A stretch of DNA of 64,000 nt from Gordius sp. MW1 (lineage: Eukaryota > Nematomorpha > Gordioida > Gordea > Gordiidae), in NCBI GenBank assembly GCA_964036665.1, contig OZ038527.1, forward strand, positions 26,881,901-26,945,900, written 5' to 3'. Numbering within the stretch: the stretch's first letter is position 1; every line of letters starts with the position of its first letter. The notes beneath the pieces were generated by a model. That model had not been told where the DNA came from. It saw nothing but the letters and a program-made list of their open reading frames with translations, and ran no database searches. Shown piece after piece: positions 582 to 61,683 of the stretch. A program made the position numbers and the translations under genes.

Positions 582-699
582 CATGACTACATAGACTGCT
601 CATCACGGTATAAAATGTGTGTGTTTTTTTCCGCCATTTTGAATAACACATAATATACCTCAATACCCTCACAAACAAGGTCAATTATGAATTATAAAA

Positions 700-1480
700 A
701 TACAATAACAATTAAAAATGTAAAAACTGTAATGATATTAAAATTAATCTAATAAATTATATATCAGAATACATAAATATTGTATTAATGCTCAATTTGT
801 TAGTTGGGAATTAATGATAAAGTAAAGAAGTATATATTTTAAAAAGGTGAATGAAACATATTGAACTTGTTAGATATCAACAACATTATATTGACACATT
901 TCATAAAAATTAAAAATGTAAAAACTGTAATAATATTAAAATTAATCTAATAAATCATATATCAGAATACATAGATATTGTATTAATGCTCAATTTGTTA
1001 GTTGGGAATTAATGATAAAGTAAAGAAGTATATATTTTAAAAAGGTGAATGAAACATATTGAACTTGTTAGATATCAACAACATTATATTGACACATTTC
1101 ATAAAAATTAAAAATGTAAAAACTGTAATAATATTAAAATTAATCTAATAAATTATATATCAGAATACATAAATATTGTATTAATGCTCAATTTGTTAGT
1201 TGGGAATTAATGATAAAGAAAGAAGTATATATTTTAAAAAGGTGAATGAAACATATTGAACTTGTTAGATATCAACAACATTATATTGACACATTTTATA
1301 AAAATTAAAAACTGTAATAATATTAAAATTAATCTAATAAATTATATATCAGAATACATAAATATTGTATTAATGCTCAATTTGTTAGTTGGGAATTAAT
1401 GATAAAGTAAAGAAGTATATATTTTAAAAAGGTGAATGAAACATATTGAACTTGTTAGATATCAACAACATTATATAGAC
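700..1480. repeat. 198-bp tandem array inside the P-like insertion
   Basis: About four head-to-tail units start with ATTAAAAATGTAAAAACTG at 711, 909 and 1107, with a slightly shortened one near 1304. A fifth partial unit resumes at 1746 after the MITE. Spacing is 198 bp between the first three. The segment GACACATTTCATAAAAATT plus the unit start also occurs once inside the P-like copy at 52.1 kb, so the array amplifies internal P-like sequence. Confidence 0.9.
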
Positions 1481-1482
1481 AC

Positions 1483-1737
1483 GAATCGGGGTCAAAATAG
1501 CAGAAAAAAAACAGCAGAATTGGTCAGAACTGGTCAGACAAGATTTTAGATAATCAATATATTAGAATTAAATCTCAAATGGGGAGGGAATTTGATGTGC
1601 ATCTAATCCTAACCCTGACCCTAACCTAAAACGCTGACCTAAAACACTAACCCGAACCTTAACCCTCCTGACCAATCTTGATCTGACCAGTTCTGACCAA
1701 TTCTGCTGTTTTTTTTCTGCTATTTTGACCCGGTCCC
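1483..1737. mobile_element. 255-bp MITE with ~50-bp TIRs and 8-bp TSD
   Basis: The inverted ends read CGGGGTCAAAATAGCAG on the left and CCGGGTCAAAATAGCAG on the right in complement. Near-perfect pairing runs about 50 bp to GGTCAGAACTGGTCAGA. The element is flanked by the direct repeat ATAGACAC (1475-1482 and 1738-1745) and interrupts a unit of the tandem array, which gives the empty site directly. The core holds degenerate CCCTAA-like sequence. An 8-bp duplication fits hAT or P mobilisation. No coding capacity. Confidence 0.9.
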
Positions 1738-2133
1738 ATAGACACATTTCATAAAAATTAAAAATGTTAAAACTGTAATGATATTAAAATTAATCTAATA
1801 AACTATATATCAGAATACATAAATATTGTATTAATACTCAATTTGTTACTTGGGAATTAATGATAAAGTAAAGAAGTATATAATGTACCCTCTCAAATAA
1901 GGTCAATTATGAGTTAACACCTAATTTTTTTTAAAAATATCGTATATCTTGTAATATCTTACTTATTTATGGTATCAAATCCTTTTTTCTTTAACTCTCC
2001 TGTTCGAAGAAAACGACATAGCGCAAAACCACATTATATGATATAGGACGGTAGTGTTATTCAAAATGGAGGCAAATTTCACACACAATTTGCCATATGG
2101 AACATATGATATGGGCAGTCTATGTAGTCTATG

Positions 2134-4564
2134 GCTGTAGCTGATCCCCAACCTTAAAGCTATGGAATATGATAGCTCAAAGTCTTCAAGCAGCATTCCC
2201 AAAAGTTTGCTGGGATAGGCTTCAAGCCACTCGTGACCGGAACCATCAAAAGCGAGGGACCTAAGGTTGTAATGCTGGCTATCGTCGCTGCTCGATAAAA
2301 GGTAATCAACGGAGCGCGATACGAGTCCAGAATCCCAATCCTTTTGTCTCGTACTTTGAGGTTGAACGGTCTCGGGTGTGACATTCAAATTCCAAAGCTC
2401 TAAGGCTTGAGTTAGCAGAGGGTCGGAATCATGTTTTGTGAGATTAAAAATTAAGTTTTGGACCGACTTAAAAGAGGAAATAAAAGCAGCTAGCGATATG
2501 CTGCCGGGAGGACGAATTCCCAATCCTCCAGATTTGGTTGGAAGGGATGCCTGAACCCAATTATTAGTGTTAAATTTTAAATTTAAAATTTTTTCTAATA
2601 AAGTTTTAAAAAGCCTTCGTACAACTTTAAAACTTCTGGGTGTAAAAATGCACCAGATGAGCGAAAACAATGATTAATCTTTGAAATGTTAAAATAGTTT
2701 TTGATTATGTAAAAAGAATGATGTGCAGGCAAGCATTTTAAAAGTTCCGTTTTAGATTTAAAAATTTCGAGGTTTTTATGAAGAAAATTTAAAAGAGATT
2801 TTTCACCGCCAATAGGTGATCCCAAAAGGGATATGTTTTCTCTAAAACTGAAAAAGTTTTAAAAAAGGGAAAGTCAATAGTGTTAGGGGCCTGATAGATT
2901 TCACATTTTTTCGTGTTTAATTTAAGATTTAGAGTGGGTTCAAAATTGTTGATAATTTCTATAGCTTTACTAATCGCCTCCGGGCGGCCACATAGGGTGG
3001 CGTCGTCGAGGTACCAAACATTTAAATCGAGGGTACACTGAGATGATATTGCCTCGACTAAATTATGAATGGCCAAACAAAACAAGGGAGGGCCTAATGG
3101 ATCTCCTTGTTGGATGCCTTCGGACGAATCAATAACGTATTCGCCGAATCGAAGCTTGGTTGTAGAACCATAGCTTAATAAAATGTAATTTAAAAATAGT
3201 GGGAATTCAGCTAAAAAAGTGTTAATAAGGGTTTCTCTTCGAATATTGTTAAAAGCATTGGCGAAATCTAATTTAACAAAGCAGGACTCGGTAGAAATAT
3301 TTTGAATTGTGATCCGGCCAGCATGGCTGGCTGCCTCACAGCCGCCTTTAATTCCGAAGCCGAGTTGATGAGGGCAGAGCTTAGCGGACAAGGAGGGTTT
3401 TATGAGTTTGCAGAGTATCTTAGATATAATACGGCGAAAAAGGCTTCCAATAGCAATGGGTCTAACTGAGTTATCCGGTTTTTTGATGGCGATTAGTTTT
3501 GCACCGAATAAAATAGGGATGATTTCATGAGGAAATTTTCCATTAACGATGATATTACAAAAAGAAGTAATAGAATTTAAGAGAGGTTCAGTATTTAAAT
3601 TATTTAAATTGAGTAAATCTTGTAGATATACTGGGCGCCATCCGTCAAGTCCAGCTGCGGAGTCCAAAGGAAAGGAGTTAAGGGCTTCACGGGTGTCTGA
3701 AGACTCGAGCACTATTGATGATGGAGATGTGGGGTATTTACTGGCTGAGGATGCTGGTGGGTGTTTTTGATTAAGCTCCCTATAAGAGTCAGGGCAACAA
3801 GGGGCTATTGAGTTGTTATCATAAAAAGCTCTAAGGGCACTTTTTGGGTTAAAATTATAAATTTTATTTGAGATGTGCTTGGCAGTTTGGTTAATTGAGA
3901 ATTCCAGCGGAAAAGGTTTTGTTTTGCTTGTGCATGTAATGGGAACATCATTATTAAAACACAGAAGGGATTCCTTGATGAGACTTGATAAATTATGTTC
4001 ATTAGGTTTCCTAACATAAAGGATATGATATGGAAATTTAAAAAATTTGTCCCAATTAGTTAAGTTATAAGGGTTTTTGATAATAGAAGTGAATAAATTT
4101 AGCAAAGATTGTTGAATGGAAGGTCTGGCTCCTCTTGGGATTCTAGAGATAGTATTAGGAAATGAATTTGTTAAAAAAGAATTACTCCAAGATAAGTCAG
4201 GCGGTTGTTTAATTAGTGGGGAGCATTGTAAGGGTGCGGGGATGACAGGGCTAGGGATTGGCAATAGGGGAGCCTCTTCAAAGTTAGAAGCCAGGGGTGG
4301 AATTGGTAAGCAGGTTGGAGGTAATTTGCCAGAAGAAGGGCACCTTGAAGACACAGGGCCATGAATCCAAAAAAAATTGTGTTTATCAAGGCATATTCGT
4401 CGCTTACAAGTTGGGCATAGGGGTTTAGAGATTAACATGTGGGAGAAAAAAACTTGATTTATAAGAGGATAAGTTGAACAATAAAGGCATCCGGACATGT
4501 AATACAAAATCATACGTTTGAATAATTTTTTTATCCAGAGCCGCCTTACTCTAGTTTGAACCAT
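2134..4564 (-). pseudogene. RLE-type retroelement copy 1, N-terminal, RT and thumb part
   Basis: The minus-strand frame begins near 4564 and stays open for 591 codons. It carries the N-terminal zinc-finger-like block (CPTCKRR, then HGPVSSRCPSSGKLPP), the IPRGARP segment, and the RT motifs [40 protein letters not shown] and YLDDATLCG. A frameshift near 2800 ends the frame. The thumb and post-RT region (LPTKSGGLGIRP, GHEWLEAYPSK) continues in another frame at 2140-2670 and stops at the P-like insertion. RT catalytic YLDD is intact. In intact relatives the product would copy element RNA at a nicked target. This copy is broken by the frameshift and the insertion. Confidence 0.85.
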
Positions 4565-4599: not shown

Positions 4600-5190
4600 G
4601 GTATATTATACATTTAATTTATTTTATAATTTTAAAACCCTTGTCCATGACAACAATATTTGGTTTAATAAATTTAACTTCACCCATAATTAATCACTTT
4701 ACCATGCCATGAGGATATAAATTACAAGTTGAATTTGATCTTTAACTTTCTCAATTGTAGAATTATCTCACTCAGATTCTTTAAAAAACAGAAATTAAGG
4801 AAAGTGCAAATGAATCATGGATGAATGAAGAGTTTACTTTGGGTACCAATTAATTGCAAATATGCTTTTTGTAGTATTAGCACTCACAATTTTTAAAAAC
4901 AACGAATTTAAAGTAAGTTTAAAAAAGCATATTAAACGCTCAGAAAAACAGAATTACTAATATCCTAATTCCTAATAATTTGGCTAGTATTGGTATCCTC
5001 CTCCTCTATTAGAAATTTAGGATTATAATTGAAAAGAGGTCGAAAAATTTTAGTCCAAATAGTCTTAAAATTAGAAGATTTACATATAAAATCTAATTTC
5101 AGATTAATTTTTTTATTGTTTGTTTGAACGTAAGAACATTATGAAAATGAAGTGTAAAAATTCGAAAATTAAAGAGCGGGTATGAAACGA
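4600..5190. other. AT-rich stretch without a recognisable gene
   Basis: Lies between the 5' end of retroelement copy 1 and the 3' end of copy 2. I see only AT-rich sequence and no coding motif, TIR or tandem unit. Confidence 0.5.
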
Positions 5191-8015
5191 AATAAAAAAT
5201 TATAATTCAAAAGCGTCGTATGTGTCATCTATTAAAAGTGGCCAGCTGTCGGCCAGGGATTTAAAATTGTACTTTGCATAAAAATGCCAATTTTATGTTT
5301 AACTAAAAATTTGTGGAATATATAGAGGGCGGGCAGCGACGGCTGATTTCTTTAAAATGCTTAATGGCGGAAGGACCAAAAGTCCCAGAACACGAGTCAA
5401 CGATAGAGGTAAAGATATTAAAGGGTAGAAGGGCCTGGTATTTTACCGTTTTGCGGTGGTCGGCGAGGGTCAGAGCGTTGTAGCTCTGGTTAGAGGGGGC
5501 GAAAATGTCTATGCAGGTGAAATCCCATTAAAGGGGTAGACCATTTTGCCAAGGGATGAGGGTAGAGTCGTCTGGTCGCATCCTTACCTCCAACGAAGGG
5601 TCTGACGGCTCTAAAACGGACGGGATATTGGCTTTTTTAAAAGCGGCTTGGATAAGGCTATTCACCTTTTCGTCCCTTATGTATTTAAATTTATTGTAAA
5701 GGCAGTGTAGGGGGTGCCTTGCATAAATGTCTATTTTTGGGAGCAGTTGCGGCAGGAATATTCCTTTGAATAGGGAATTCATAATCTGGTGGCGATGGAG
5801 TATGCTAGCTCTGGGTGCTGCAACATCAATCCAGAAAGTGAACTAGGATAAGCTTCTAGCCACTCTTGACCCGATCCGTCAAAAACCAAAGATTTAAGGT
5901 TGAAGTGCTGGCGGGCGTCGCAACTCGATAAGAGGTAATCAACGGAGCGCGATACGAGGCCAGCATCCCAATCCTTTTGTCTTGAGGTTATGGGAAAGGG
6001 GGTCCCTGTGTTGACGTTGGCAGACCAGACATCTAGAGCTTGTACAAACCATGGATCCTCGCTTGTTGTGATTAATCGGTTCAAACCTTAGGCGGATTTA
6101 TACGAAGAGATAAAGGCTGCTAATGAAATTGAGTTAGCAGGGCCTATGCCTAAGCCGCCAGCTTTAGTAAGTAATGAGGCTTGGAGTCAAGAAGAAGTGC
6201 TGAATTTGATATTAAGGATGGCTTCTGGCGTGTTTTTCATAAAGCTATCGTAGCTTTTTAAAATCTCGGGTAATAAAAAAGCGGATGAGGACCGAAAGCA
6301 GTGTTGAATTTTCGAGATATTAAAATAATTTTTGATGATATAAAATGCGTGATGTTTTGGGAGGGTATTGAGAATTTCCATCTTCGAGGAAAGAGTTGCT
6401 AAGTGACTATGTAAAAACTATTAAGGCGATTTGCCCACCTATTGGAGAGCCTAGATGAGTTAACTCTTCATTTCTACTTTTAAATGAAGCTTAAAAATGG
6501 GAAATATGTCTGTATCCGGGCATTGATATATCTCGCATTTAGAGATAATCAATTTCAGTTTAGGACGGCTTCATAATCTCGGCTTAAAAGAATGGCCTTG
6601 GAGATTTCTTCCTGAGGCATAAGGTGGCATCGTCAAGGTACCAGACGTTTAATGATAAAGAGCATTGATTTGAGAGGGATTCGGTTAAATTTTTGATCCC
6701 TAGACAAAACAAAAGTTGACCTAGAGGGTCACCCTTTTGAATACTTTCTGCCGATTCAATTATAAAGTCCCCAAACTTTAGTTTGTGCAACCGTAACTTA
6801 AATTGATGTAATTTGAAAACTTTGGAACTCATCAACCAAGGAATTTATAATCGATTCTCGGCGAATATTATTGAATGCATTGGCAAAGTCTAATTTAACC
6901 ATGCAAGGGAATTTGTTGAAGACTTATCCGCGCAGCGTGATTGGCAGCTTCACAGCCGCCTTTAATCCCAAATCCAAATTGATGAGGAATTAACTTGTCG
7001 CTTAAACTGGATTTGATTGTCTTACAAATGAGTTTTGATATAATACGTCGGAAAACACTGCCAATAGCGATGGGTCTTACCGAATTATCAAGTTTTTTGA
7101 TAGCGATGAGTTTAGCGCCGAACAATATAGGGATTATTTCGGTAGGAATATTACCGTTGACAATTAAATTGCATAGGGACGTTATAGAGTTGAGTAAAAT
7201 TGCAGCGCTCACGTTTTGGAGGTTAGTCACGTCTTGTAAATAAAAGGGGCGGAAACCGTCAAGGCCTGCTGCAGAGTCAATGGGAAAGGAATTGATGGCT
7301 TCCCGAATGTCGGAAGAGTCTAGTTTTATGGAAGAGGCTGAGGTAGGGAGTCGATTTGCCGATGAGGACGAGGAATGTTGAGATTTGAGTTGTTGGTATG
7401 AATTAAGGGAGTAAGGAGCAATTGAGTCATTGTCATAAAATAATCTTATAGCACTTTTGTGGTTAAAGATATCAATTTTTTTAGATTTGTTTAGCAGTTT
7501 GCTTGACAGTGGAGGAGTTTGGGGATTGTTTGTGCTGGGGGTATTTTTAAAAATATTATCAATATTGAAATTTAAAAAGGAGTCTTTAATATGTTTGGAC
7601 AGATTTTCAACGTTGGGTCCTCTTACATATAAGGTGTGAAAGGTAAGTCTGAAAAGTTTATCCTAGTTAGTAAGATTTGAGGGAGAGTTTGTTATGGAAG
7701 TTATAAGATTTTAAAAACTTTGGGCGAGCACCCCTAGGAATTTTTGATATAGTGCTGGGAAAGGTTGAGGCTTCCAAGAATAGTCCAAAGAAGCGGTAAT
7801 AATGGGGCTGTCTAAGGATGGAGGATCTGAGTTGGACGTGCAAGGGGCATCATGAGGAGCATCCTCTATTATGGAGGCAAGAGGTGGAATAAGAGGGCTA
7901 GCAGATGGGATTTTCCCAGAGGAGATACAACGAGCAGAAGGGTGACCACGTATAATAAAACAGTTATTTTTTTCATGGCTAACAAATTTTTTTCATGTAC
8001 AACAAAAGGATTTAG
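5190..8015 (-). pseudogene. RLE-type retroelement copy 2, decayed
   Basis: A nearly full-length minus-strand copy, closely related to the intact element at 26.6-29.5 kb but cut by many frameshifts and stops. In element order from the right: the N-terminal zinc finger (about 7900-8010), the central region (7250-7800), RT fingers with AIKKLDNSVRPIAIGSVF and [14 protein letters not shown] (6895-7230), QKGDPLG and YLDDATLC (6584-6835), thumb (6187-6381), GQEWLEAYPSS (5779-6084), and the nuclease-like domain (5528-5782). Changed motifs such as QKGDPLG for QQGDPLG, and several indels, mark it as dead. The AT-rich leader to about 8110 resembles that of the intact copy. Confidence 0.85.
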
Positions 8016-8200
8016 TGAAACCCGTATTTATGTTATTTTATAAAAGAGATATTGAAGCAGTTGGTAAAATGTTATTAAGATATATATAAAATATATAGAT
8101 ATTAGATTTGTAAAAATCCTCTGAACATGTTAATCTATTATTTCTATCCTAGCAACATTCCAATTAATAAAGTGTTTGCGATCTAATTTTAAAATTATTT

Positions 8201-10849: not shown

Positions 10850-11400
10850 CATACTAGCTGACCCGGCAAACGTTGTTTTGCCATATTAAAAAAATTTAAA
10901 AAAAATTAAAAAATTTAAATAAGAAAATTTAAAATTACCAAAAAAATTTTTTAAAAACACAACTATACGAAAAATAACAATAATTGATATTTTTAAAGGT
11001 GGTTAAAAACACAAAATTTTACCTCAATAATGTTCGAATTTAAATTTTCACGAAGCAAATTTTTTTAAGTCAAATTTACCTATAATCAAAAAAAAATATC
11101 GCGCCTGGCCTTTATGATAAAATATAAACAAAAGGCGGATACGGATACGCATATAGTTTATTTAACGAAAAATAACAAATAATTGATATTTTTAAGGGTG
11201 TATAAAACACAAATTTTACCTCAATGATGTTCGAATTTAAATTTTCATGAAGCAAATTTTTTTAAGTCATATTTACCTATAATCAAAAAAAAAATATTGC
11301 GCCTGGTCTTTATGATAAAATATAAACAAAAGGCGGATACGGATACGCATATAGTTTATTTAACGAAAAATCAAACGTTGTTTTGCCATTTACCCGGGTG
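10850..11400. repeat. Dispersed repeat end plus two ~200-bp tandem units
   Basis: Starts ACTAGCTGACCCGGCAAACG with GTTGTTTTGCCAT; a second AAACGTTGTTTTGCCAT block followed by TTACCCGGGTGTATTAGC closes the unit near 11400. Between them two tandem copies of about 200 bp each end in AAAAGGCGGATACGG, ATACGCATATAGTTT. No coding potential seen; family not identified. Confidence 0.7.
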
Positions 11401-21434: not shown

Positions 21435-24314
21435 ATGAAATTAAACATTGGATCAATAAACATCAACTCACTAATGATACAAGGTAACCAGCAACTAATG
21501 CTCATGTTTGCCCGTAAACATAAACTAGACGTGCTATGTCTACAACAAACACGAATTCCTTCCTCAAGAACGGATACATATCCCGACTATACACTTTATC
21601 ACTCCGGGGTTACCGACAACCCAGCTTCAGGAGTTTCCACACTGGTAAATAGGCGTCTCACTGTTTTGAGCCTAAACCGAGTCAACGATAGAATTATAAT
21701 ACTAAACCTAAAAGTGGGTGCTCGCACAGTGTTAATTATAAATGTTTATGCACCAACTGCATCATACAAACTACAGATCCTTAAAGAATTTTTCAAAGTT
21801 ATTGTAAAAGCAACAAAAGATCTGACTTCTAGGGCAGTCCCAATAATAATAGGAGACCTCAATGCCTCTGTTGCCCTTACGGACCGGGATGACACCAACA
21901 TAATCGGCCAAAACACGTTGGGCTCCAACAATAGGAATGGAATTTTCTTGAAAAAATGGTGTAAAGAATATAGGTGGCGAATTGCTTCCACCTTTTCTCA
22001 ACTTTCCAACGACCAGCTAGCTACCTTCCGTGGTACAAATACCTCCCGACCAAGTCAAATTGACCACATGCTCTGTAGGTCACGCCATTTTAAGACCGTC
22101 AAGAACTTCAAAGTAATTCACGATCCCGTTACAGTGAATGCTGATCACCATGTGATTACCGTAGAACTAATAATAAAATCAGCCACTCTACATGTACCCT
22201 GTACAAACAGAAACCCAATAATAAGACCTCAAGGCATAACAGGCAATCTGGAGTTTAAAGATAATCTTCTCCTTAAAGTTAAAGACACTGTTTTCCCAAA
22301 GCTCTCAGTCAACGAACACAGCATTGAGTTATCAAAGATATTTGCGAACCCACCAAAGCAAAAAAACCGCATCAAGACGAAAACATGGTTTTCCCAAAAG
22401 ACACTAGACCTGTTGAAGACAAGGACGAATATATTTCATTGCAAAAAGGATCTTCCGTTCAAACACTCATGCTTGTCTGCCCTTAGCAAGCGTATCAAAT
22501 CAAGTATACGACAAGACAAAATAACTTTCATCAATTCTAAAGCAAGTGAGGCAGAATCAGCTGCACGTTCGAACAATAGCCATCGCCTCTTTACAATTAT
22601 TGATAGCCTTAAATACAATACATTAGCTAAGCGCACCCATTATAACATAAAAACAGACAACAGCTCTAACGACTCAATAAACCAGACAAAAGCTTGGGAA
22701 GCCCACTTCCGTTCTATCCTATCCCCCCATTCGCCCGTTCCTGTACTGGACATCTATAAAGAATTTATTAAGAACTTCAAAGGACCTCCGCCGCTCCCGA
22801 TTGACACACTCCCACCATCCATCTCCGAGATTGTTAGAGTGATCAAAACTCTTAAATCACATAAGGCAGCAGATCCGTTGGGGATGACTGCTGAAGCACT
22901 TAAAGCGGACTCGGACCTATCCGGAAAACTTCTATACCACCTTTTTTACAAAGTCTGGGATAATGAGGAATTACCAAACTCCTGGTCGTTAAGCCGCCTT
23001 AATAAACTATTCAAGAAAGGAGACCCTTCTGATCCAAACAACTATCGGGGAGTGACAATCATAAACCTTGAATCAAAGCTCTTTATCAAAGTATTATACA
23101 ATAGACTCTACAACCAGATAGACGATATACTTAGACACAATCAAGCGGGGTTCAGGAGGTGCCGCACAACCACGGAACATATTATCACTCTAAGAAATAT
23201 AATGGATATCTCCAGTACTAGCAAAACCCCTCTTGTCCTTGTATTCTTGGACTTAGCCAAAGCTTTCGACTCTGTACAGCACCTATATATATGGGAGTCC
23301 CTATGCCTATTGGGAATACCAAAGAAGATAATCAGAATCATTTTTATTATATACGCAGACATGAAGGTAGTTGTCTCTCACCTTCATCATCTATCAGACC
23401 CAATTCTCGTGACGACAGGAGTCAGACAAGGCTGCCCATTGTCTCCCCTTCTCTTTATTATAGTGATGGATCTGATAATGAAAAGGTCAATACTTGCCTC
23501 CGATGGCATTACGTTAAACGGAACTATGCTATCCTCACTCATCTTTGCCGACGACTTATGTCTGGTGGCGACCTCTACAAAGAAGGCCCAATCTATGGTG
23601 GACAAATTCTCCGATCAGGCAAAACAAGCTGGACTATATATAAATGCCGACAAATGTGCAATGATAACACTAAACGTTCCCTCAGAGGACAGGATACTGA
23701 TCAATAACAACCCTATTAATGTGTCCCACAAAGTTCGATACCTAGGAGTAGACCTCACAACAGACATCTACGCCGGAGTAGATGTGGAGTCAAAATTACA
23801 ACGTACCCTGGTTAAATTCCACTCTTGCTCCGCCATATGGAGATCCCGCCACTTGACGCTCCCTACACGACTCAGGATTTTCAAAGTAATGATCCTACCA
23901 GTTCTGTTATACGGTTGTGAATCCTGGTCTTTAAGAGCACCTACTCTAAGAAAACTTCAAGTCAACGTGAATAAAATGCTGCGGATAGTTTGTAGAATTT
24001 TCTACCCTAACATAATATCAAACGAAGATTTGTGGGTTCGATGCAAAATTCCTCCGATAAAGAATATAATTTCAACCAGAAAATGGGGCTTCTTAGCCCA
24101 TCAGGTAAGAAGAAAAGGAACTAATTATTGTTTATCTTCCCTGTTTTGGCGTCCTCCTCTATTAAGGGGTCGCGCGTGCAATAATAGTTGGCTGTACAAA
24201 GTATTCCGCGACATGCAAACCCTCGGTAAAGATTGGACCTCGTTACAAGCTATCATGAATGATAGAAAAGCATGGAAAAATTTCTCGGAAACCCATATTT
24301 CTCGCCTCCACTAA
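21435..24314 (+). CDS. LINE polyprotein: APE-like endonuclease plus reverse transcriptase
   Basis: A 959-codon open frame. Residues 1-235 form an endonuclease/exonuclease/phosphatase fold: IGSININSL at the start, IINVYAPT, IGDLNAS, SQIDHML and NADHHVI. RT spans about 480-760 with FKKGDPSDPNNYRGVTII, QAGFRRCRTTTEHI, FLDLAKAFDS, GVRQGCPLSPLLF and the catalytic FADD. The C-terminus carries YGCESWSLRAPTLRKLQ and a Trp-rich tail typical of RTE-like LINEs. The expected catalytic Glu of the LQET motif is Gln (LCLQQTR), so target nicking may be lost although the frame is intact. The start Met precedes the conserved first beta strand by only a few residues. RTE-like placement is an inference from motifs and the microsatellite tail. 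Confidence 0.92.
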   Translation: MKLNIGSININSLMIQGNQQLMLMFARKHKLDVLCLQQTRIPSSRTDTYPDYTLYHSGVTDNPASGVSTLVNRRLTVLSLNRVNDRIIILNLKVGARTVLIINVYAPTASYKLQILKEFFKVIVKATKDLTSRAVPIIIGDLNASVALTDRDDTNIIGQNTLGSNNRNGIFLKKWCKEYRWRIASTFSQLSNDQLATFRGTNTSRPSQIDHMLCRSRHFKTVKNFKVIHDPVTVNADHHVITVELIIKSATLHVPCTNRNPIIRPQGITGNLEFKDNLLLKVKDTVFPKLSVNEHSIELSKIFANPPKQKNRIKTKTWFSQKTLDLLKTRTNIFHCKKDLPFKHSCLSALSKRIKSSIRQDKITFINSKASEAESAARSNNSHRLFTIIDSLKYNTLAKRTHYNIKTDNSSNDSINQTKAWEAHFRSILSPHSPVPVLDIYKEFIKNFKGPPPLPIDTLPPSISEIVRVIKTLKSHKAADPLGMTAEALKADSDLSGKLLYHLFYKVWDNEELPNSWSLSRLNKLFKKGDPSDPNNYRGVTIINLESKLFIKVLYNRLYNQIDDILRHNQAGFRRCRTTTEHIITLRNIMDISSTSKTPLVLVFLDLAKAFDSVQHLYIWESLCLLGIPKKIIRIIFIIYADMKVVVSHLHHLSDPILVTTGVRQGCPLSPLLFIIVMDLIMKRSILASDGITLNGTMLSSLIFADDLCLVATSTKKAQSMVDKFSDQAKQAGLYINADKCAMITLNVPSEDRILINNNPINVSHKVRYLGVDLTTDIYAGVDVESKLQRTLVKFHSCSAIWRSRHLTLPTRLRIFKVMILPVLLYGCESWSLRAPTLRKLQVNVNKMLRIVCRIFYPNIISNEDLWVRCKIPPIKNIISTRKWGFLAHQVRRKGTNYCLSSLFWRPPLLRGRACNNSWLYKVFRDMQTLGKDWTSLQAIMNDRKAWKNFSETHISRLH

Positions 24315-25539: not shown

Positions 25540-26030
25540 AATGGAGTTCCATTTTTAAGGTAGTGGCAATCTCAAGGGAGAATTATATCTTCAATTGTTT
25601 GAGGTATTTTAGGTCTGTTTTTATGAACAATTCTATTCAGTGTTTTGATCACGGATTTCAAAGACGGCAGAGCATGTGGGTATTGCCAAATATCCTCAAC
25701 TTCTTCCCTTCTTTGGTAAATCACATCATTGTATACCTAAATAGATCAATTATTATAAGACCAAAGACATATATTTACCTTTGTAATTGATTCCCTGAGA
25801 CTATTTTGCATAGCCTTCTTTAAATTACTTTTTGTCAGAAGGCAATGATACTCATCAGGTTTATGGTTATGATTTTTTTTATTTTTGCTAAATTCTCAGA
25901 AAATATTAGTCTACAAGGACATTTTGAATGCCTGCATTGATAATAAGTGCAAGTTTTTGTAGATTTGTCAACTACATAAAGATAGTTATTAAGGACTAAA
26001 ATGTTTTTCCCTTTTTGGGATGGCAAGAAT
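25540..26030 (-). pseudogene. FLYWCH-type zinc-finger / MULE N-terminal fragment
   Basis: The minus-strand frame reads SQKGKNILVLNNYLYVVDKS, then YYQCRHSKCPCRL, then (after an AT-rich break) NHNHKPDEYHCLLTKSNLKK. This is the C-x4-C...H-x-H arrangement of FLYWCH fingers found at the N-terminus of MULE-like transposases. Downstream sequence to 25540 decays. Confidence 0.6.
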
Positions 26031-26039
26031 GTTATATCT

Positions 26040-26515
26040 AAATTATAGTGTGGTTACATAAACTAAACATAAAATGAATTTACTTTGGGTATTAACACGT
26101 GGTGTACAGGCCTGTTCAATGACATCTAAAGCATCATTGTTGGAATCTATTTATAAATAAGATAGTTAAACATTAACTATGTTACATTGAATTATGTCAA
26201 ATTACTTGCTACAATATTATTTGGTGAGTTTAATGTGGCATCTTGACTTGAATCTAAAATAAATAAGGATTTTAAAAAATATACTCAAATCTCTTACTTC
26301 CATTAACATCTGATATAAGGGCTTGTTAAATATAATCTAATGAGTTCAATAAAATTGCTTCTTGACTTAAATCTAAAAAAAATTCAAAAAAAATACTAAA
26401 ATCTTTTACTTTCTTGATCCTCTATGGGTATGGACATATTTTTTACAACTAAATACTTAATTTAAATTATAAATTTCTTACTTTGCTGACTATTTCTGAT
26501 GTTATTTGACAATTA
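26040..26515. other. AT-rich, imperfect repeats, no gene
   Basis: Two or three degenerate ~130-bp repeats share CTTGACTTGAATCTAAAA and ACTCAAATCTCTTACTT phrases. Ends at the poly(T) that marks the 3' tail of retroelement copy 3. Confidence 0.5.
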
Positions 26516-29500
26516 TTTTTTTTTTTTTTTTTTTTTAATGTATATATTGTTTGTTTATTTAAACGTAAGAACATTATAAAAACGAAGTGTCAAAATTCGA
26601 AAAATATAGCGGATGTAAAACAAAATAAAAATATTATGATTCAAAAATGTCGCATGTGTCATCTTGTAAAAGTGGCCAACTGTCGGCCAGGGATTTAAAA
26701 TTGTACTTAGCTATAAAAATACCAATTTTTTGTTTAAGTAAAAAATTAGTGGAATATTTAGAGGGCGGGCAGCGACGGCTGATTTCTTTAAAAAGCTTAA
26801 TGGCGGCCGGACCAAAAGTCCCAGAACACGAGGCAACGATAGGGGTAAAGATATTAGATGGTAGGAGGGCCTGGTATTTAACCGTTTTGCGGTGTTCGGC
26901 GAGAGTCAGAGCGTTGTAGTTTTGGTTAGAGGGGGCGAAAATGTCTATGCAGGTGAAATCCCATTTAAGGGGTAGACCATTTTGCCAAGGGATAAGGGTA
27001 GAGCCGTCTGGTCGCATCCTTCCCTCCAACGAAGGGTCTGACGGCTCTAAAACGGAGGGAATGTTGGCTTTTTTAAAAGCGGCTTGGATAAGGCTATTCA
27101 CCTTTTCGTGCCTTATGTATTTAAATTTATTGTAAAGGCAGTGTAGGGGATGCCTTGCATAAATGTCTATGCTCTGGGAGCAGTTGCGGCAGGAATATTC
27201 CTTTGAGTAGGGAATTCCTAGTCTGAGGGCGATGGCGTATGCTAGCTCTGGGTCCTCCAACATCAATCCAGAAAGTGAGCTAGGATAAGCTTCAAGCCAC
27301 TCGTGACCCGATCCGTCAAAAACTAAAGATTTAAGGTTGAAGTGCTGGCGGGCGTCGCAACTCGATAAGAGGTAATCAACGGAGCGCGATACGAGGCCAG
27401 CATCCCAATCCTTTTGTCTAGAGGTTATGGGGAAGGGGGTCCCTGGGTTGACGTTGGCTGACCAGACGTCTAGGGCTTCTACAAACGACGGATCCTCATT
27501 TGTTGCGATTAAACGGTCGATCAATCCTTGGGCAGATTTATAAGAAGAGATAAACGCAGCTAACGAAATTGAGGTAGCTGGGCGTATGCCCAAGCCGCCA
27601 GCTTTAGTAGGTAAAGAGGCTTGGAGCCACGAGGAAGTGCTGAATTTGATATTAAGAATCGCTTCTAAAGTATTCTTCATGAAGCTATCGTAGCTTTTTA
27701 AAATCTCGGGCAATAAAAAGGCTGAAGAGGACCGGAAGCAGTGTTGAATTTTTGAGATGTTGAAATAGTTTTTAATGATATAAAATGCGTGGTGTTTGGG
27801 GAGGGTATTAAGAATATCCATCTTCGATGTAAGAGTTGATAAGTGGCTATGTAAAAATTCTTTTAAGGCGATTTGCCCACCTATTGGAGAGCCTAGATGA
27901 GTAAAACTCATCAATTCAACTTTTAAAAAGGGCTTAAAAATGGAAAATTTGTTGGTATCCGGGCACTGATATATCTCGCATTTAGAGATATTCAATCTCA
28001 AGTTTAGGGAGGTTTCATAATGTTGGATTAAAAGAATGGCCTTGGAAATTTCTTCAGGAGGGCCGCATAAGGTAGCATCGTCCAGGTACCAGACGTTTAA
28101 TGATAATGAGCATTGGTTTGAGAGGGATTCAGTTAAATTTTTGATCCCAAGACAAAACAGAGGTGGACCTAGGGGGTCTCCCTGTTGAATACCTTCTGCC
28201 GAATCAATTAAAAAGTCCCCAAACTTTAGTTTTGATATACAACCGTAACTTAAACTGATGTAATTTGAAAACTTTGGAAACTCATCAATGAAGGTATTTA
28301 TTATCGTTTCTCGGCGAATATTATTAAAAGCATTGGCAAAGTCCAGTTTAACCATGCAGTGATTGGAGGGAATTTGTTTTAGACTTATCCGCGCAGCGTG
28401 ACTGGCAGCCTCACAGCCGCCTTTAACCCCAAATCCTAATTGATGAGGAATTAACTTGTCGCTTAAACTGGATTTGATTGTCTTACAAATGAGTTTTGAT
28501 ATTATACGTCGAAAAACACTGCCAATAGCAATGGGTCTCACCGAATTATCAGGTTTTTTGATAGCGATGAGTTTAGCGCCGAACAATATAGGGATTATTT
28601 CGGTAGGAATATTACCGTTGACAATTAAATTGCATAGGGACGTTATAGAGTTGAGTAAAATTGCAGCGCTCACATTTTGGAGGTTAATCAGGTCTTGTAA
28701 ATAAACAGGGCGGAAACCATCAAGGCCTGCTGCAGAGTCGATGGGAAAGGAATTGATGGCTTCCCGAATGTCGGATGAGTCTAGTTTTATGGAAGAGGCT
28801 GTGGTAGGGAGTCGATTTGCCGATGAGGATGGGGGATGTTTAGATTTGAGTTGTTGGTATGAATCAAGGGAGTAAGGAGCAATTGAGTCATTGTCATAAA
28901 ATATTCTTAGAGCACTTTTGGGGTTAAAGTTATCAATTTTTTTAGAAATTAGTTTAGCAGTTTGCTTGGCAGTGGAGGAGTTTGGGGATTGTTTGTGCTG
29001 GGGGGTATTTTTAAAACTATTATCAATATTGAAATTTAAAAAGGAGTCTTTAATATGTTTGGACAGATTTTCAGCGTTGGGTCCTCTTACATATAAGGTG
29101 TGAAAGGTAAGCCTGAAAAGCTTATCCCAGTTAGTAAGATTTGAGGGAGAGTTTGTTATGGAAGTTATAAGGTTGATTAAAAACTGTTGAGAAGCCGGGC
29201 GAGCTCCCCTAGGGATTCTTGAAATAGTATTGGGGAAGGTTAAGGCTAAAAAAGAATCACTCCAAGAATAGTCCAAAGAAGTGGTAATAATGGGGCTGTC
29301 TAAGGATTGAGTATCTGAGTTGGACGAGCAAGGGGCATTATGAGGAGCATCCTCTATTATGGAGGCAAGAGGTGGAATAAGAGGGCTAGCAGGTGGGAAT
29401 TTCCCAGAGGAGATACAACGAGCAGAAGGGTGGCCATGTATTATAAAACAGTTATTTTTTTTGAGGCTAATAAGTTTTTTGCATGTACAACAAAAGGATT

Positions 29501-29725
29501 TAGTTGAAACCATTTTTAACTTATTTTAGGGATTAAAGCATTTGGTGAACCATTATTAAGATATATATAAATTATATAGATATTAGTTTTATAAAAAAAA
29601 CCTCTGAACATTTTAAGGATAATATGTGTATGAAAAAGGTGATTGTTGCATTGTATGTGGACTTATGTTTAATATTTATTTTTATGTATATAAATTTAGG
29701 CCTAAATATGTATTGTAAAAAGAGC
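26516..29725 (-). mobile_element. RLE-type retroelement copy 3, full length
   Basis: The element runs on the minus strand from about 29725 to a 20-nt poly(A) tail, seen as T at 26517-26536. The 5' limit is where identity with copy 8 stops: both share sequence up to TATTGTAAAAAG and then diverge. It has a short leader of about 210 bp and one ORF. I find no target-site duplication. On the right it abuts a FLYWCH-like coding relic, into which it may have inserted. Confidence 0.85.
26634..29513 (-). CDS. RT with N-terminal zinc finger, CCHC knuckle and RLE-like nuclease, intact
   Basis: A 959-codon open frame. Residues 8-33 hold a CxxC...H...C finger (CCTCKK, HGHPSARC). IPRGARPASQQ lies near 118. 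The RT has DSAAGLDGFRP near 257, AIKKPDNSVRPIAIGSVFRR near 325, VKLDFANAFNN near 395, [11 protein letters not shown] near 445 and catalytic YLDD near 485. A thumb-like region includes LPTKAGGLGIRP. Near 780 a CCHC knuckle (CRNC...HPLHC) precedes an RPD...WDFTCID...AE..K..KY block, resembling the restriction-like endonuclease of R2-type non-LTR elements. All expected catalytic residues appear present. The product would nick target DNA and reverse-transcribe element RNA. Order matches R2/NeSL-type elements, but the exact clade is unknown to me. The ATG is shared with copy 8. Confidence 0.88.
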   Translation of the reverse strand: MVSTKSFCCTCKKLISLKKNNCFIIHGHPSARCISSGKFPPASPLIPPLASIIEDAPHNAPCSSNSDTQSLDSPIITTSLDYSWSDSFLALTFPNTISRIPRGARPASQQFLINLITSITNSPSNLTNWDKLFRLTFHTLYVRGPNAENLSKHIKDSFLNFNIDNSFKNTPQHKQSPNSSTAKQTAKLISKKIDNFNPKSALRIFYDNDSIAPYSLDSYQQLKSKHPPSSSANRLPTTASSIKLDSSDIREAINSFPIDSAAGLDGFRPVYLQDLINLQNVSAAILLNSITSLCNLIVNGNIPTEIIPILFGAKLIAIKKPDNSVRPIAIGSVFRRIISKLICKTIKSSLSDKLIPHQLGFGVKGGCEAASHAARISLKQIPSNHCMVKLDFANAFNNIRRETIINTFIDEFPKFSNYISLSYGCISKLKFGDFLIDSAEGIQQGDPLGPPLFCLGIKNLTESLSNQCSLSLNVWYLDDATLCGPPEEISKAILLIQHYETSLNLRLNISKCEIYQCPDTNKFSIFKPFLKVELMSFTHLGSPIGGQIALKEFLHSHLSTLTSKMDILNTLPKHHAFYIIKNYFNISKIQHCFRSSSAFLLPEILKSYDSFMKNTLEAILNIKFSTSSWLQASLPTKAGGLGIRPATSISLAAFISSYKSAQGLIDRLIATNEDPSFVEALDVWSANVNPGTPFPITSRQKDWDAGLVSRSVDYLLSSCDARQHFNLKSLVFDGSGHEWLEAYPSSLSGLMLEDPELAYAIALRLGIPYSKEYSCRNCSQSIDIYARHPLHCLYNKFKYIRHEKVNSLIQAAFKKANIPSVLEPSDPSLEGRMRPDGSTLIPWQNGLPLKWDFTCIDIFAPSNQNYNALTLAEHRKTVKYQALLPSNIFTPIVASCSGTFGPAAIKLFKEISRRCPPSKYSTNFLLKQKIGIFIAKYNFKSLADSWPLLQDDTCDIFES

Positions 29726-29860
29726 ACAACCCTTCCTGGGCATTGAAATTTACTGTACTTGCTGCACTTATAATACATTTGTTCATTTTTTCCCTCTTTA
29801 ACATTGATATAATCATCATAGTTAAAGAGGGTTAAAATGTAATGTTTTCTCTTTGGTTTT
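29726..29860 (-). pseudogene. FLYWCH-like zinc-finger fragment
   Basis: The minus strand reads HYILTLFNYDDYINVKEGK, then MYYKCSKYSKFQCPGRV, a Y-x-C...C-P-G-R pattern as in FLYWCH/MULE fingers. It ends abruptly at the 5' end of retroelement copy 3, which suggests the element inserted into it. Distinct in sequence from the FLYWCH piece at 25.5-26.0 kb. Confidence 0.5.
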
Positions 29861-29947
29861 TTAAACCCTACAACAATATATTTACACTTGAATACTAATG
29901 CTTAAATATATTTTCTTTGTTTTGAAGATTTTGCGTCAAAGAGATTC

Positions 29948-30065
29948 CCACGTTTTCATGATATTAAGTACAATTTAACATATGTTAAATTTGGCGCGTA
30001 GTAATATTTTCGGGATTTTGGGGGGGAACCCGAGACCGAAATCACAATATGAAAACGTGAGTAAG
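29948..30065. repeat. Short foldback with ACGTTTTCAT ends
   Basis: CCCACGTTTTCATGATATT at the left and AATATGAAAACGTGAG at the right are inverted and about 115 bp apart. The core includes GGCGCG and GGGGGGAACCC. Probably a small MITE; no duplication identified. Confidence 0.5.
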
Positions 30066-30110
30066 AAATTTTGTTTATTTCTTATTTTTTGGATCGAATA
30101 AAAAAATGGA

Positions 30111-30401
30111 ATGTCAGATCGCTTATACAGTACAAGATTTGGATCGTGTAACAATGGCCATTTGTTTTTTGCTTTTTTGTCCAATGGCACTGAATCACCA
30201 TGTCCAGTATGCTATAAGATAATTGTAATAACAAAACTTGGAAAGTATGTGGTCCATGGCCCCCGCAACAACTGTTGTCCAGCATCGAAGACATTCCATT
30301 TACTTTACCCCACAACACCCCTAACAATACTTCCTAACAGTTATTTCCATGACAATTTACATTTTTTCTCCTGCACACCTATACGTTCAGATAATTTCTG
30401 A
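30111..30401 (+). pseudogene. RLE-type retroelement N-terminal fragment
   Basis: The frame includes SPCPVCYKIIVITKLGKYVV, then HGPRNNCCPAS, matching the N-terminal CxxC...HGP...C block of this family, followed by unrelated low-complexity residues. It lies just upstream of, and in the same orientation as, copy 4, whose own N-terminal block is separate. It is therefore a relic of another copy or a duplicated start. Confidence 0.6.
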
Positions 30402-30543
30402 AACTTCAACCTTCTAATTCTTATGGCAAAAGTTCACATACTATTATTCTTATTCAATATTTATCTATCAATGAAAAGTTAAAGCAATTTCGATAAATTG
30501 CCTATCATCATCGGATAGTAAAGATATCTGTTTCTCTATTTTT

Positions 30544-33500
30544 TTGATCATGACTAAACTTACTAAACCAAACTTTATAACAACCTGTCATGTATGCCTT
30601 AGAAACGTCTCCCTTACACAATCAGGACTTATTTGCATTCATGGACCTCATAAAGCTTCAGGAAAGCCAGGGGAAACTTCTAAACCTAAAATTATGGACC
30701 CGATAGCCATCCCCAAATCAGACACCCCCTCAGACATCACATTAACAAATTTTCGAAGTCTTCCCTTTATTAAAATAATAAAAAGTATTCCTAAAGGTGC
30801 AAGATACCTAGTATCACAGACACTTTCTGAGGCCATTTTAAAACTCACCAAAAATGTAAACAACTATGAAGATTGGCAAAATTTCTTTTACTTTGCATCT
30901 CGTGTTCTTTCGGTGCCGCCCAAATCATATACTGGATCTCTTACAAGTTGGGTAAAAACAAATCTTAAAAAGTGGCAAGAATTCAGTGAACCAATAACTT
31001 ATGATACCCAGGAAGAGCAAACTCATTCGCCCCTTAAACATAGAGCGAAAATAGTCTCCGCAAAAATCAATAATTGCGACATTCAAGGTGCAATCCGCAT
31101 CGCTTCCTCTGATAATAAAATATCCCCAGACAACAAAGACACCCTGGAATCTCTAATAGCTAAGCATCCTTTAAGGCCAAACCTGCCTTTACCCAATCCA
31201 ATTCAACAGGCCCATCAAAACTTCTCCACTTCAGAAGTCCTAGCTACTATTAATACTTTTAAGCGCTCTTCGACAGGCGCAGGGCTCGCTGGCTGGCGTA
31301 TCTAGAACTATCAAATCCCTTAATAGACCGCTCAGGAGTTTTCTTGAGCTCCCTCACCACCCTCATTAACATCATTATGAAAGGCCAAATCCCCGAAATT
31401 GTTGCCCCACATTTCTTCGGCGCTACTCTAGTATCATTTTCTAAACCTGATGGTGGAATTCGACCTATTGCAATGGGGTCTGTTCTACGCAGACTCTGTT
31501 CCAAACTGATCATAAAAAGCATCAAAAGTAAAGCTGTGGAAATCCTGGCTCCTACTCAACTCGGATTTGGTGTAAAAGTAGGATGCGAAATTGCTTCACA
31601 CGCGGTAAGAATTTCTCTTAATACCCCAACCCCCTCAGTGATCGCTAAAATTGATTTCAAGAATGCTTTCAATTCCATTTATCGTTCCCACTTCCTTAAT
31701 GAAACATACAAACATTTCCCAGAATACTCCGCATTTCTTAATGCATGCTATTTACCAGTTTCAATATTACAATTTCACAAACATATTATCAATTCTTGTG
31801 ACGGTATTCAACAAGGCGACCCTTTGGGGCCGCTTCTGTTTTCTCTTGGCATCAAAACTTTAGTTGACAGCCTTGCAACAAAGTTCAATCTGACTTTAAA
31901 CATTTGGTACCTTGACGATGGTACCATCCAAGGCGCCCCCGATGATGTTTTTGCCGCTTTGAAATACCTGGAAATCGAATCAACAAAAATCGGACTAACT
32001 CTAAATCAATTCAAAACCGAAATTTGTCCCCTTAACACACCTCTTATTGACAATCAAGACCTATTATCTTACACATTAATAGACCCTTCCTTGTTGACTC
32101 TACTCGGATCCCCAATAGGAGGCTCTATTCCTATATTAAAATTGTTAGAAAAAACCAGTCGCAGACTTGCAGACATCAAAAGCCTATTTAAACACCTTCC
32201 TGCCCACCAAGCATTTTTTCTAGTAAAAAACTGCTACTCAATCCCTAAATTAATGCACAGCTTCCGGTCCTCTGCAGTTTTCTCACATCAAGACCCCTGT
32301 CCAAGTTCGATGCAGAACTTAAGTCTTTAACCCAAGAAATAACCAATCTTACACTAGGTTCTACACACTGGCAACAAGCTTGCCTGCCAACAAAACTGGG
32401 GGGGGGGGCTAGGCTTAGGCTCAATAGCCTCCATATCTCTATCCGCATTTATATCAAGCCGCATGTCAAATGAAAGCTATATTCCAACATTAACCCCGCA
32501 ACATGACAACTTACTCGACGTCGCCCTCCAACAATGGAAGGAATCCTTTAACGTCTTTACTCAATTCCCTGAAGTAAACTCCCAAAAGTGCTAAATTGGC
32601 CCCCTGTCCAAGTGCCTCTTTAAGTCTCTCATTAATGGCGCTTCGGCAGAGGAACTTCCAGCGCTTAGGAGCTTTGCTTCACGCTCAGGTCACGAATGGC
32701 TCGAAGCTTTCCCAAGCCGTAACCTTGGTCTTCTTTTATCCAACACCGAATTCCGCTTCGCAGTAGGCCTAAGATTAGGATGCGATATTGTTGCTGAACA
32801 CACTTGTTCGCTTTGTAATAATTCCGTATCGGATGGCCACCATGGCCTTCACTGTAATCGCAACAAAGCCCGGTACTTTCGACATACCGCGGTTAACAAA
32901 CTTATACATAGCTATTTCACCAAAGCTGGTTTCCCCTCAATTCTCGACAGGCCTCTGTGATGACAACAAACGACCCGATGGCCAAACTTTAGGCGCTTGG
33001 GAAAAAGGACTCAGTTTAGCATGGGATTATACATGTACTGACGTATTTGCCCCATCTAATAATAACAAAGATCCCTTGTTCTCAGCCGAGGCCCTGAAAA
33101 TTTCAAAATACTCAGATATTAACACCACTATAATATTTTGTCCCATTGCGACAACTACCCTAACAACCTTTGGCCCCCTAGCCGTGGGGGAGAGGGGAGC
33201 AGGGGGGTGTTTTGCCCCCCCCCCCCAATTTTTTACCCTCTTTCTGATGCGAGGGAGAGGGGGGGGGGGGGCAGGGGGTGTTTTGCCCCCCCCCCCTAAT
33301 TTTTTACTTTCTAATGCGGGGGAGAGGAGGGGGCATGGGGGTAGTTTTGCCCCCCCCCCCTCCCTAATTTTTTACCCCTAGCCTTTCAACTCTTTAAAAA
33401 AATAGGGAAACTATTTCATTGTTATCGCATGATAATCGCGAATCATTTTTTATACGTCAGAAAATCGCAATAACCATCTGTAAATATAATTCATTAGCCA

Positions 33501-34055: not shown

Positions 34056-34279
34056 ATGTTAATAAAATTTTATAATATACTTAAATTACTTTGATTGTGG
34101 TATGTTTGACTAGAATAACAAGTTTATATTGATCTGATTTATAATTTAGATAAGAATTATTATGTTTTCAGTTAATAACCTATAATATCACAAACAATAT
34201 TGATTATAATTCAACCATGGTTTACAAGCTTAATTAAAATTTATCATATTTAGCACACTATGCATTTACTTATCTTTTG

Positions 34280-39659: not shown

Positions 39660-40575
39660 TGGGTTAGAATCCTGGAGTTTTTTTTGACTCTTATGATTGT
39701 TCTTGTTACTATCATTGATAATAAGACTTTTTGGCCGTCCGCTGGCTGCTGACCATTGAAAAAAATGACCATTGGCCAAAATGTGACTCCGAGTTTATTT
39801 TTTCGTTTTTTTTGACTATTATGATTGTTCCTGTTCCTACCATTGCTATTATGACTTTTTGGCCGTCCGCTGGCTCCTGACCGATGGAAAAAATGACCAT
39901 TGGCCAAAATGTGAATCGAAAATATTTTTTTCGTTTTTTTTGACTATTATGATTGTTCCTGTTCCTACCTTTGCTATTATGACTTTTTGGCCGTCCGCTG
40001 GCTGCTGACCAATGGAATAAAATGACCATTGGCCAAAATGTGATTCGAAATTTTTTTTTCGTTTTTTTTTACTATTATGAATTTGTATCCACTTTTACCG
40101 TGTCCTGGCTGTTGACCAATGGAAAAAAATTGACCATTGGCCAAAATGTGATTTGAAATTTTTTTTTTCGTTTTTTTACTCATATGAATTTATATCCATT
40201 TTTACCGTGTGCTGGCTGCTGACCAATGGAATAAAATAACCATTGGCCAAAATGTGATTCGAAAACTATTTTTAGTTTTTTTTGACTATTATGAATTTAT
40301 ATCCACTTTTACCGTGTCCTGGCTGCTGACCAATGGAAAAAAATGACCATTGGCCAAAATGTGATTCGAAAATTTTTTTTTCGTTTTTTTTACTCTTATG
40401 AATTTATATCCACTTTTACCGTGTGCTGGCTGCTGACCAATGGGAAAAAATGACCATTGGCCAAAGTGAGCATCAAAATTTTTTTTCCGTTTTTTTTGGC
40501 TATCATTGACTTATAGAGTATCTGTTGGTACTGACCAATGGAGAAAAAATGACCATTGGCCAAATTTTTGATTTT
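39660..40575. repeat. ~110-130-bp satellite with CCAATGG/CCATTGG hairpin
   Basis: About eight units, each with TTTTTTGACTATTATGA, a GGCCGTCCGCTGGCTGCTG or TACCGTGTCCTGGCTG stretch, then TGACCAATGG, an A run and TGACCATTGGCCAAA. The last two pair as an inverted repeat. Minus-strand frames reading ANGHF...GQQPADG are repeat products. Further units occur at 43.4-44.3 kb. Confidence 0.92.
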
Positions 40576-44320: not shown

Positions 44321-45165
44321 GATTGGCGCTCCGTCGCTTACCTACTTTCGAGTTGTGATACTGTGCAGCATTTTAATCTCAGGTCACTTACGGCCGACTC
44401 TGGTCACGAATGGCTTGAATGTATCCCAAGTAAACACTCAGGACTTTTGCTTTCAAATCCAGAAGTTTCGTATGCAATAGCTCTTCGCTTAGGTATTAAA
44501 GTTACCATAGGATATCCCTGCAAAAATTGCAATAAGGAAATAGATATCTGGGCTCATCACCCACTCCATTGCAAGTTAAACAAATATCGCTTTATCCGAC
44601 ATCAAAAGATAAACCTTTTAATCCAATCGGCTTTAAAAAAGGCCGGCACTCCTTCCATCCTTGAACCCTCCGATCCTTCTTTAGAAGGTAGAATGCGTCC
44701 CGATGGAGCTTCTATGATCCCCTGGGAGGATGGTAAGTTCCTAGCATGGGACTTTACCTGCTTAGATATCTTTGCGCCAACTAATAATAATTATAACCCA
44801 CTTTCTTGCGCCGAAGATCGTAAAACATTCAAATACCGAGCCATTGCTCCTTCTAAGATTTTTATTCCAATAGTAGCTTCCTGTTCGGCTACTTTTGGCA
44901 AAAAAGCATTAGCTTTTTAAATCGATAGGAAACAGATCCCCTAAAGCTAAATACTCACCCAGCTTTATTTTACGCCAAAAAATCGGCATTTTGATAGCTA
45001 AATATAATTACAAATCTTTATCCGACACATGGCCTGTGTTGGCTATTGACGAATGTGATGAATAATTTTTTTTTATTTATAATATTATTTTATGCTCGTT
45101 TATTGTATATTTCATGTATCAATTTTACCTAATAAAAGCATTTTAACATCAAAAAAAAAATATGT
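44320..45165 (+). pseudogene. RLE-type retroelement copy 5, 5'-truncated
   Basis: Begins directly at a satellite unit with RSVAYLLSSCDTVQHFNLRS and continues GHEWLECIPSK, CKNC...HHPLHC, EGRMRPDG, WDFTCLDIFAPT, CAEDRKTFKY and ASCSATFGKKALAF before a frameshift near 44920. The rest (IGILIAKYNYKSLSDTWPV) continues to about 45063, followed by an AT-rich 3' UTR and an A run near 45150. It lacks the N-terminal and RT domains. Knuckle and nuclease residues are intact. Confidence 0.85.
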
Positions 45166-47998: not shown

Positions 47999-48553
47999 AT
48001 TTTTCTTTTTTTTTTTCTTCTTCTTTTTTTTCTTCTTCTTCTTTTTCTTCTTCTTTTCTTCTTCTTTTTATTTTTATTTTGTTTCTTCTTTTTTTTTTTT
48101 TATTTTTTTTTTTCATCTTTCTTTATTTTTTTTCTTTTTCTCCTTTTTTTCTTTTACTTCTTCTTTTTTTTCTTCTCCTTTTTTTCTTTTCTTTTTTTTT
48201 CTTTTCTTTTTCTTCTTTTTTTTATTTGTCTTTTTTTCTTTTTTTTTCTTTTTTTTCTTTTTTTTATATTTCTTCTTTTTCTTATTTTTCTTCTTTTTTC
48301 TTTTTTTATTTTTCTTCTTTTTTTTCTTTTTATTCTTTTTTTTCTTTTTCTTCTTATTTTTATGTTTCTTTTTTTTCTTTTTTTTCTTCTTCTATTTTTT
48401 CTTTTTCTTCTTTTTTTATTTTTCTTTTTTTTCATTTTTTTCTTCTTTTTATTCTTTTTTTTCTTTTTCTTCTTTTTTTATGTTTCTTTTTTTTCTTCTT
48501 TTTCTTCTTCTTTTTCTTCTTTTTTTATTTTTTTTATTTTTCTTCTTCTCTAA
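47999..48553 (+). repeat. ~555-bp polypyrimidine (TTC/TTTTC) tract in kinase intron
   Basis: Almost pure T and C on the plus strand, with rare A, filling most of the 724-bp intron between the DFG and APE exons. The long F- or K-rich frames across it are artefacts. Could form triplex DNA and is prone to length errors. Confidence 0.95.
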
Positions 48554-61161: not shown

Positions 61162-61683
61162 CTACGGAGAAAAATGGGATTTATTGTGCTTTTTTGAACT
61201 TAATTAAATATAAAAATTTGACAAAATTAAATATTATAACCTCTCTTCAATTGAATCTACACTTCAACGATTACCCGATATAATGATATTTTCCAACTTC
61301 ATAAATTCAATAAATGAGGTGTAAGTAAACGTTGAACATTTAACTACCTAAAGGCGCGCAATTTTCATCAATAAATAGTGAAGCTTTAAGTAAAAAAATC
61401 AATAAACGCCTTTATCACATACCCTCCCTGACGCATCGCCTAAAATGGCGGAAAAAAGGAAAACAACATAATCATCTTGGAATCTATACAAATTAGTATA
61501 TATCCATCCCTCAAAGGATTTGGAAAAAGTTGCCGTTATCGGATGTTCTGCACGAAAATTATATTAATTCTTATTATGCACTACAAACGGAATCCTCTAC
61601 TATTTACCTAGAAATTCTTCATGTATCACTTATCTATTAACATTGGTACATTACTTATCCCTATTTTATTAACATTCATAGTT
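61162..61683. other. No gene recognised
   Basis: AT-rich intronic or intergenic DNA between the first visible spectraplakin exon and retroelement copy 8. Confidence 0.4.

Follow-up and report, generated by a model that had tools for sequence, protein, structure and literature searches.

The element at 26516-29723 of the window is best read, with a probability of about 0.92 and on the evidence of its sequence, as a 5′-truncated copy, with an intact ORF, of an RLE-type non-LTR retrotransposon that is dispersed in an animal genome and was recently mobile. The window is the whole 64,000-nt stretch analyzed here (contig C1:26881901-26945900), drawn from a 211.8-Mb genome in 12 contigs, eight of them 21–37 Mb long. 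The element lies on the minus strand, where a single uninterrupted frame of 959 codons occupies 26634-29513, as the initial annotation had reported, and is the sole ORF of at least 100 aa in 26000-30500. It is followed by a short 3′ UTR of 97 nt (26537-26633) and by a 21-base poly(T) at 26516-26536, which on the minus strand is the poly(A) tail noted earlier, 21 A long; most other 3′ ends of the family have such a tail too. Within the ORF we find an N-terminal zinc finger CX2CX14HX6C (aa 8-33, 29415-29492; pattern and alignment), a reverse transcriptase (RT; about aa 241-560, 27834-28793) with a YLDD catalytic box (aa 476-479, 28077-28088; read from the translation, and where it had been claimed), a CCHC-like knuckle CX2CX9HX3C (aa 775-792, 27138-27191) and an RLE core R-P-D836...D852...K876-x2-K879-Y880 (26874-27014), the last two recognized by alignment and profile comparison, with R2 in the case of the core. 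These motifs, together with RT and RLE homology to R2, support the earlier proposal that finger, RT, knuckle and nuclease stand in one ORF in an R2-like order.

The same annotation called the element intact, which is true of the ORF and wrong for the 5′ end. The remaining leader (29514-29723) was delimited by comparison with other copies. The base matching window position 29723 is the start of 27 of 40 other 5′-region matches (40 of 109 candidates scored); beyond it the focal copy runs into unrelated flank, and other fetched copies continue through about 250 nt more of common leader. Since they do, the focal copy is 5′-truncated and the 5′ end of the element does not lie at 29725. The extra leader is common to eight loci and to the window copy at 61429, with starts that agree within nine bases, and, at about 460 nt, the full leader leaves no room for a second long ORF. 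Near the leader start, AAAATGGCGG occurs in 10/10 copies that reach it (window 61442 among them), is absent from the three truncated copies examined and was not found in the sister family L030. We take this string to resemble a YY1 site; human LINE-1 has a YY1 site near its start. The position of AAAATGGCGG in the lost half of the leader hints at a candidate internal promoter. The string also occurs at window 45703 and 52274, where it is tied to no known copy.

Several lines of comparison identify the RT. Pfam at E ≤ 1 returned RVT_1 (E 7e-20) and nothing else in the focal protein, which therefore lacks protease, RNase H and APE domains. Searched against PDB, the family profile ranked R2 first (E 1.4e-12), with positions 238-659 aligned to 355-790 of the Platysternon protein, and group II RTs behind it (E 4e-7). 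In fold comparison the RT matches both R2 and LINE-1, and Foldseek places R2 chains first among the LINE matches. The RT0 loop reads AGLD, as against the PGPD described for RLE LINEs in the excerpted text of PMC5678591, which the literature drawn on here does not treat as a requirement. Focal motif strings including YLDDGTL and RCPGSG had no match in open-licence PMC papers.

The C-terminus was compared with the R2 nuclease directly. Both the knuckle (C775, C778, H788 and C792) and the core (R834-P835-D836, D852 and K876-x2-K879-Y880) are kept, as had been read from the letters. By hhalign the C-terminal profile aligns with the R2 RLE at a score of 37.8 (P 4.2e-5; probability 70% with thin profiles), above all 200 column shuffles (maximum 20.0) and the reversed profile (11.3). 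The focal series knuckle/RH/LEP/RPD/WDFTCID/KTVKY pairs in order with R2 knuckle/RH/LEP/KPD/VDV/KRNKY. In the portions of PMC5678591 consulted, the catalytic lysine is the first K of KX2KY, a peculiarity of RLE LINEs, and the RLE knuckle is spaced CX2-3CX7-8HX4C. The focal knuckle is one residue off that spacing, which fits two sister families (CX2CX8HX4C in L069 and CX2CX7HX4C at window 32595-32948). When the C-terminal profile was searched against PDB, R2 was not among the matches (best E 0.039). AlphaFold models of aa 745-959 (14 rows; pLDDT 40, pTM 0.31) were of low confidence and were not used for fold searches; the model of the whole ORF (19 rows; pLDDT 47, pTM 0.45) had a usable RT core, and its fold listing, which names no nuclease, is uninformative because residues 683-959 are not usable. 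The profile alignment thus supports the predicted PD-(D/E)xK-like nuclease, here with the KX2KY variant.

The N-terminal finger is less uniformly preserved than had been proposed. A claim that it recurs in every copy reaching it holds for three copies, at 4340-4417, 29415-29492 and 61914-61991, where a pattern scan of the window found CX2CX14HX6C intact and of identical length, and fails for two older ones: the copy ending near 8133 shows a stop in place of one Cys codon and Arg in place of the His, and the copy at 30544 no longer has the last Cys. The scan also recovered an isolated intact finger, CPVCYKIIVITKLGKYVVHGPRNNCC, at 30201-30278 (+), right before the decayed copy that starts near 30544. 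A further pattern match at 34190 is full of stops and was discarded as a chance match. The focal family and L030 share 42% identity over the first 45 residues, compared with 66–69% from RT to RLE, and the four ligand residues are kept; dS between the two families is too saturated for a dN/dS of the finger. The same finger is found in L071, from a family with a 940-aa ORF, whose other pieces are 33–47% identical to the focal protein. No match at E ≤ 10 was returned for the N-terminal 60 aa of the focal protein. The L071 finger (L071:672-839) matches PHROG 5559, a phage family without known function (E 3.7e-5); none of the other three finger pieces matches that family, and tblastn of phages was also negative.

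Relatives of the focal copy lie elsewhere in the window. A second, closely similar copy had been noted, and we place it at 61429-63104 (+), with a full 5′ leader and broken off at 63104; it is 99.3% identical to the focal element over 1,422 nt of DNA, its ORF runs from 61893 with 98.3% aa identity over 404 aa, and the part missing in the focal copy corresponds to 61429-61682. An older, decayed copy of the same family occupies 5116-8133 (-; 89.8% DNA identity). A sister-family copy lies in pieces at 26-4438 (-; about 65% aa identity), with the tandem repeat 705-1482 between the pieces, and 44327-45059 (+; 66% and 63% aa identity) is a 3′ fragment of a sister family. Decayed copies of more distant families are found at 30748-33249 (+; 28–44% aa identity) and 55911-58415 (+; about 38%). 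Past the copy ending near 58415, a further small fragment, from a close relative, lies at 59348-59452 (+; 66% over 35 aa). The window also holds an intact 959-codon ORF of an APE-type LINE with endonuclease and RT (21435-24314, +; best PDB match LINE-1 ORF2p, E 9e-37) and tandem repeats at 705-1482 and 10967-11371 (period 198), 39677-40503 (107–128), 48000-48547 (T-rich) and 63132-63213 (44), the last directly past the point where the copy at 61429-63104 is broken off.

Beyond the window, copies were placed on all eight large contigs. Six near-full-length copies (L009-L014, the focal one included) are stop-free at 95–100% identity, so the open frame is not a chance product; L012 starts at aa 5 and L013 at aa 13, and close to the C-terminus of L014 the frame is shifted over a short stretch. 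At the 3′ end, the focal copy and 39 others are 96–99% identical, a figure that rests on the best 40 of 949 candidates and shows the existence of recent copies without implying that they are the majority. The dN/dS of the focal ORF is 0.18 against L010 and 0.29 against L011; against L014, which is more diverged and locally frame-shifted, it is 0.60 (0.030/0.049). Within the L030 family the values are 0.25 and 0.18. At the codon level such comparisons demonstrate selection on the ORF. Recent activity, as argued in the initial annotation, finds sequence-level support in near-identical copies, open frames and low dN/dS in two pairs. A sister family with a 940-aa frame (e.g., C8:30190072-30191016; L069-L071) probably marks another very recent burst in the same clade, since at least 16 of its copies share an identical score of 431.1 bits. 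Among 27 pattern matches on viral contigs there was no relative of the focal family. The genome also gave 141 collagen-repeat matches, many grouped in an exon-like manner, which identify the host as an animal.

Most copies have their 3′ end in common, carry a poly(A) tail and differ in 5′ start point. Their flanks differ (33 copies with both ends; 36 3′ flanks), and there is no fixed rDNA site. We scanned 60 loci (L009-L068) for target duplications; six were left out because they repeat other loci or are tandem or broken copies (L028, L039, L043, L045, L063 and L064), ten belonged to other families and eleven fell short of the 5′ end. Among the remaining 33, one has a clear duplication (L023, >30 nt) and one a probable duplication of 9 nt (L014). 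Re-paired flanks gave none at the threshold of L023; this control does not extend to the level of L014, and short duplications may be missed. L023, the sole copy with a long target duplication, has no poly(A) tail, unlike most others. Three 5′-truncated copies (L061, L063 and L064; C3:10.19 Mb) stand in tandem with a spacing of about 1.2 kb. The second base past the tail is A or T in 37/37 cases, and in 35/36 of a strict set (0.65 expected, P = 5e-6). An apparent preference for T at the first base (29/37, P = 0.003) was lost (24/36, P = 0.24) after removal of interrupted tails and shared flanks.

The kind of element is already known: it is an RLE non-LTR retrotransposon, which most likely works by target-primed reverse transcription. 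By analogy with R2, the single protein would use finger and knuckle to bind the target and the poly(A)-ending RNA that encodes it, the RLE would nick DNA at loosely chosen AT-rich places, and the RT would prime on the nick at the RNA 3′ end, which is target-primed reverse transcription. Synthesis would often halt early, yielding 5′-truncated copies.

Which RLE clade the family belongs to was approached with RT trees whose references were R2, LINE-1 and group II. A first tree included five rows from the host whose branch had a length of 4.4, presumably another RT class; for the second, these and two near-duplicates were removed and human LINE-1 was added. There the focal family forms a group of its own (support 100/100) on a branch of length 1.87. 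Membership in the CRE group, as a dispersed animal lineage, is close to an even call. CRE is the deepest-branching RLE group, and the best second tree puts the focal family outside R2+APE. As a single query, moreover, the focal protein finds group II intron RTs at E 1e-6 and R2 at E 5e-5, with no LINE-1 match at E ≤ 1, and the APE LINE of the window finds LINE-1 at E 9e-37 and R2 at E 7e-26, so that by this measure the focal RT lies at a greater distance from R2 than do APE LINEs. Against a CRE placement, the split in the tree has support of 37/14 only (R2 itself is unsupported as one clade), the family profile ranks R2 ahead of group II RTs, and CRE elements are mostly target-specific according to an excerpt of PMC4640811, whereas the focal family is dispersed.

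A rather unlikely candidate is an undescribed animal RLE clade outside CRE, R2, R4, NeSL and Hero. It would be distinguished by the YLDD box, the AGLD loop and the single CX2CX14HX6C finger, and would have given up fixed sites for loosely AT-rich, duplication-free insertion. Membership in Hero, NeSL/Utopia, R4 or Dualen is unlikely: as excerpted, PMC4640811 describes many non-specific families in Hero and rarely recognizable target duplications in Utopia, another RLE lineage, but RVT_1 is the only Pfam domain of the focal protein at E ≤ 1, with protease (including the N-terminal Ulp1-like protease of nematode NeSL), RNase H and APE domains absent.

We consider membership in the R2 superclade, as a non-site-specific lineage comparable to R2NS or BLAG, very unlikely. 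The family finds its best LINE matches in R2 chains, both by sequence and in Foldseek, its RLE matches that of R2, non-site-specific R2-like elements have been published (PMC7650587, in part), and an AU test on the second tree did not reject a focal+R2 grouping (P = 0.37). However, R2 proteins match each other at E 1e-59 or better, compared with 5e-5 for the focal protein, whose family sits on the long branch given above, and probing the host genome with an R2 RT gave 96 scored matches (of 2,451 candidates), none of them overlapping, as judged by eye, the focal locus or the family places listed for comparison. The scored matches include the APE LINE of the window. Eight RT matches to the probe on C3 (20.50-20.64 Mb and 4.39-4.41 Mb; 27–31% identity, frames of 486–1663 aa) are possibly R2-group elements of the host. 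Finally, selection on the ORF would also fit a host gene derived from a retroelement, a reading made exceedingly improbable by the number of near-identical copies, which are spread over all eight large contigs and, among those read, mostly poly(A)-ended and 5′-truncated.

Read as a mobile RLE-type retrotransposon, the family joins an R2-like nuclease to an RT far from that of R2 and is relevant to the age of this combination. Because RLE elements are mostly target-specific (PMC4640811, in excerpt), such a prolific dispersed family would be useful for studying the role of the finger in targeting. Should it fall in a known clade, its value would mainly be that of a new, recent example.

Compared with R2 of Bombyx, Taeniopygia and Platysternon (PDB), the focal element shares a single ORF, the order zinc finger(s)-RT-knuckle-RLE and the (R/K)PD, D and KX2KY core. 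It differs in having YLDD where R2 has F/YADD, AGLD where R2 has PGPD, a CX2CX14HX6C finger, and dispersed sites with poly(A) tails rather than one fixed rDNA site. The CRE group (SLACS, CRE1/2 and MoTeR) likewise consists of RLE elements, as excerpts of PMC4640811 and PMC3636483 describe. BLAG of Blattella, likened to the focal family by description, is an R2-like element scattered in its genome; both BLAG and R2NS are without a fixed site, but BLAG is reported within the R2 superclade (PMC7650587, available part). Utopia/NeSL elements, also compared by description, carry zinc finger(s), RT, zinc finger and RLE in one protein, and Utopia targets U2 snRNA genes (excerpt of PMC4640811), whereas the focal family is dispersed.
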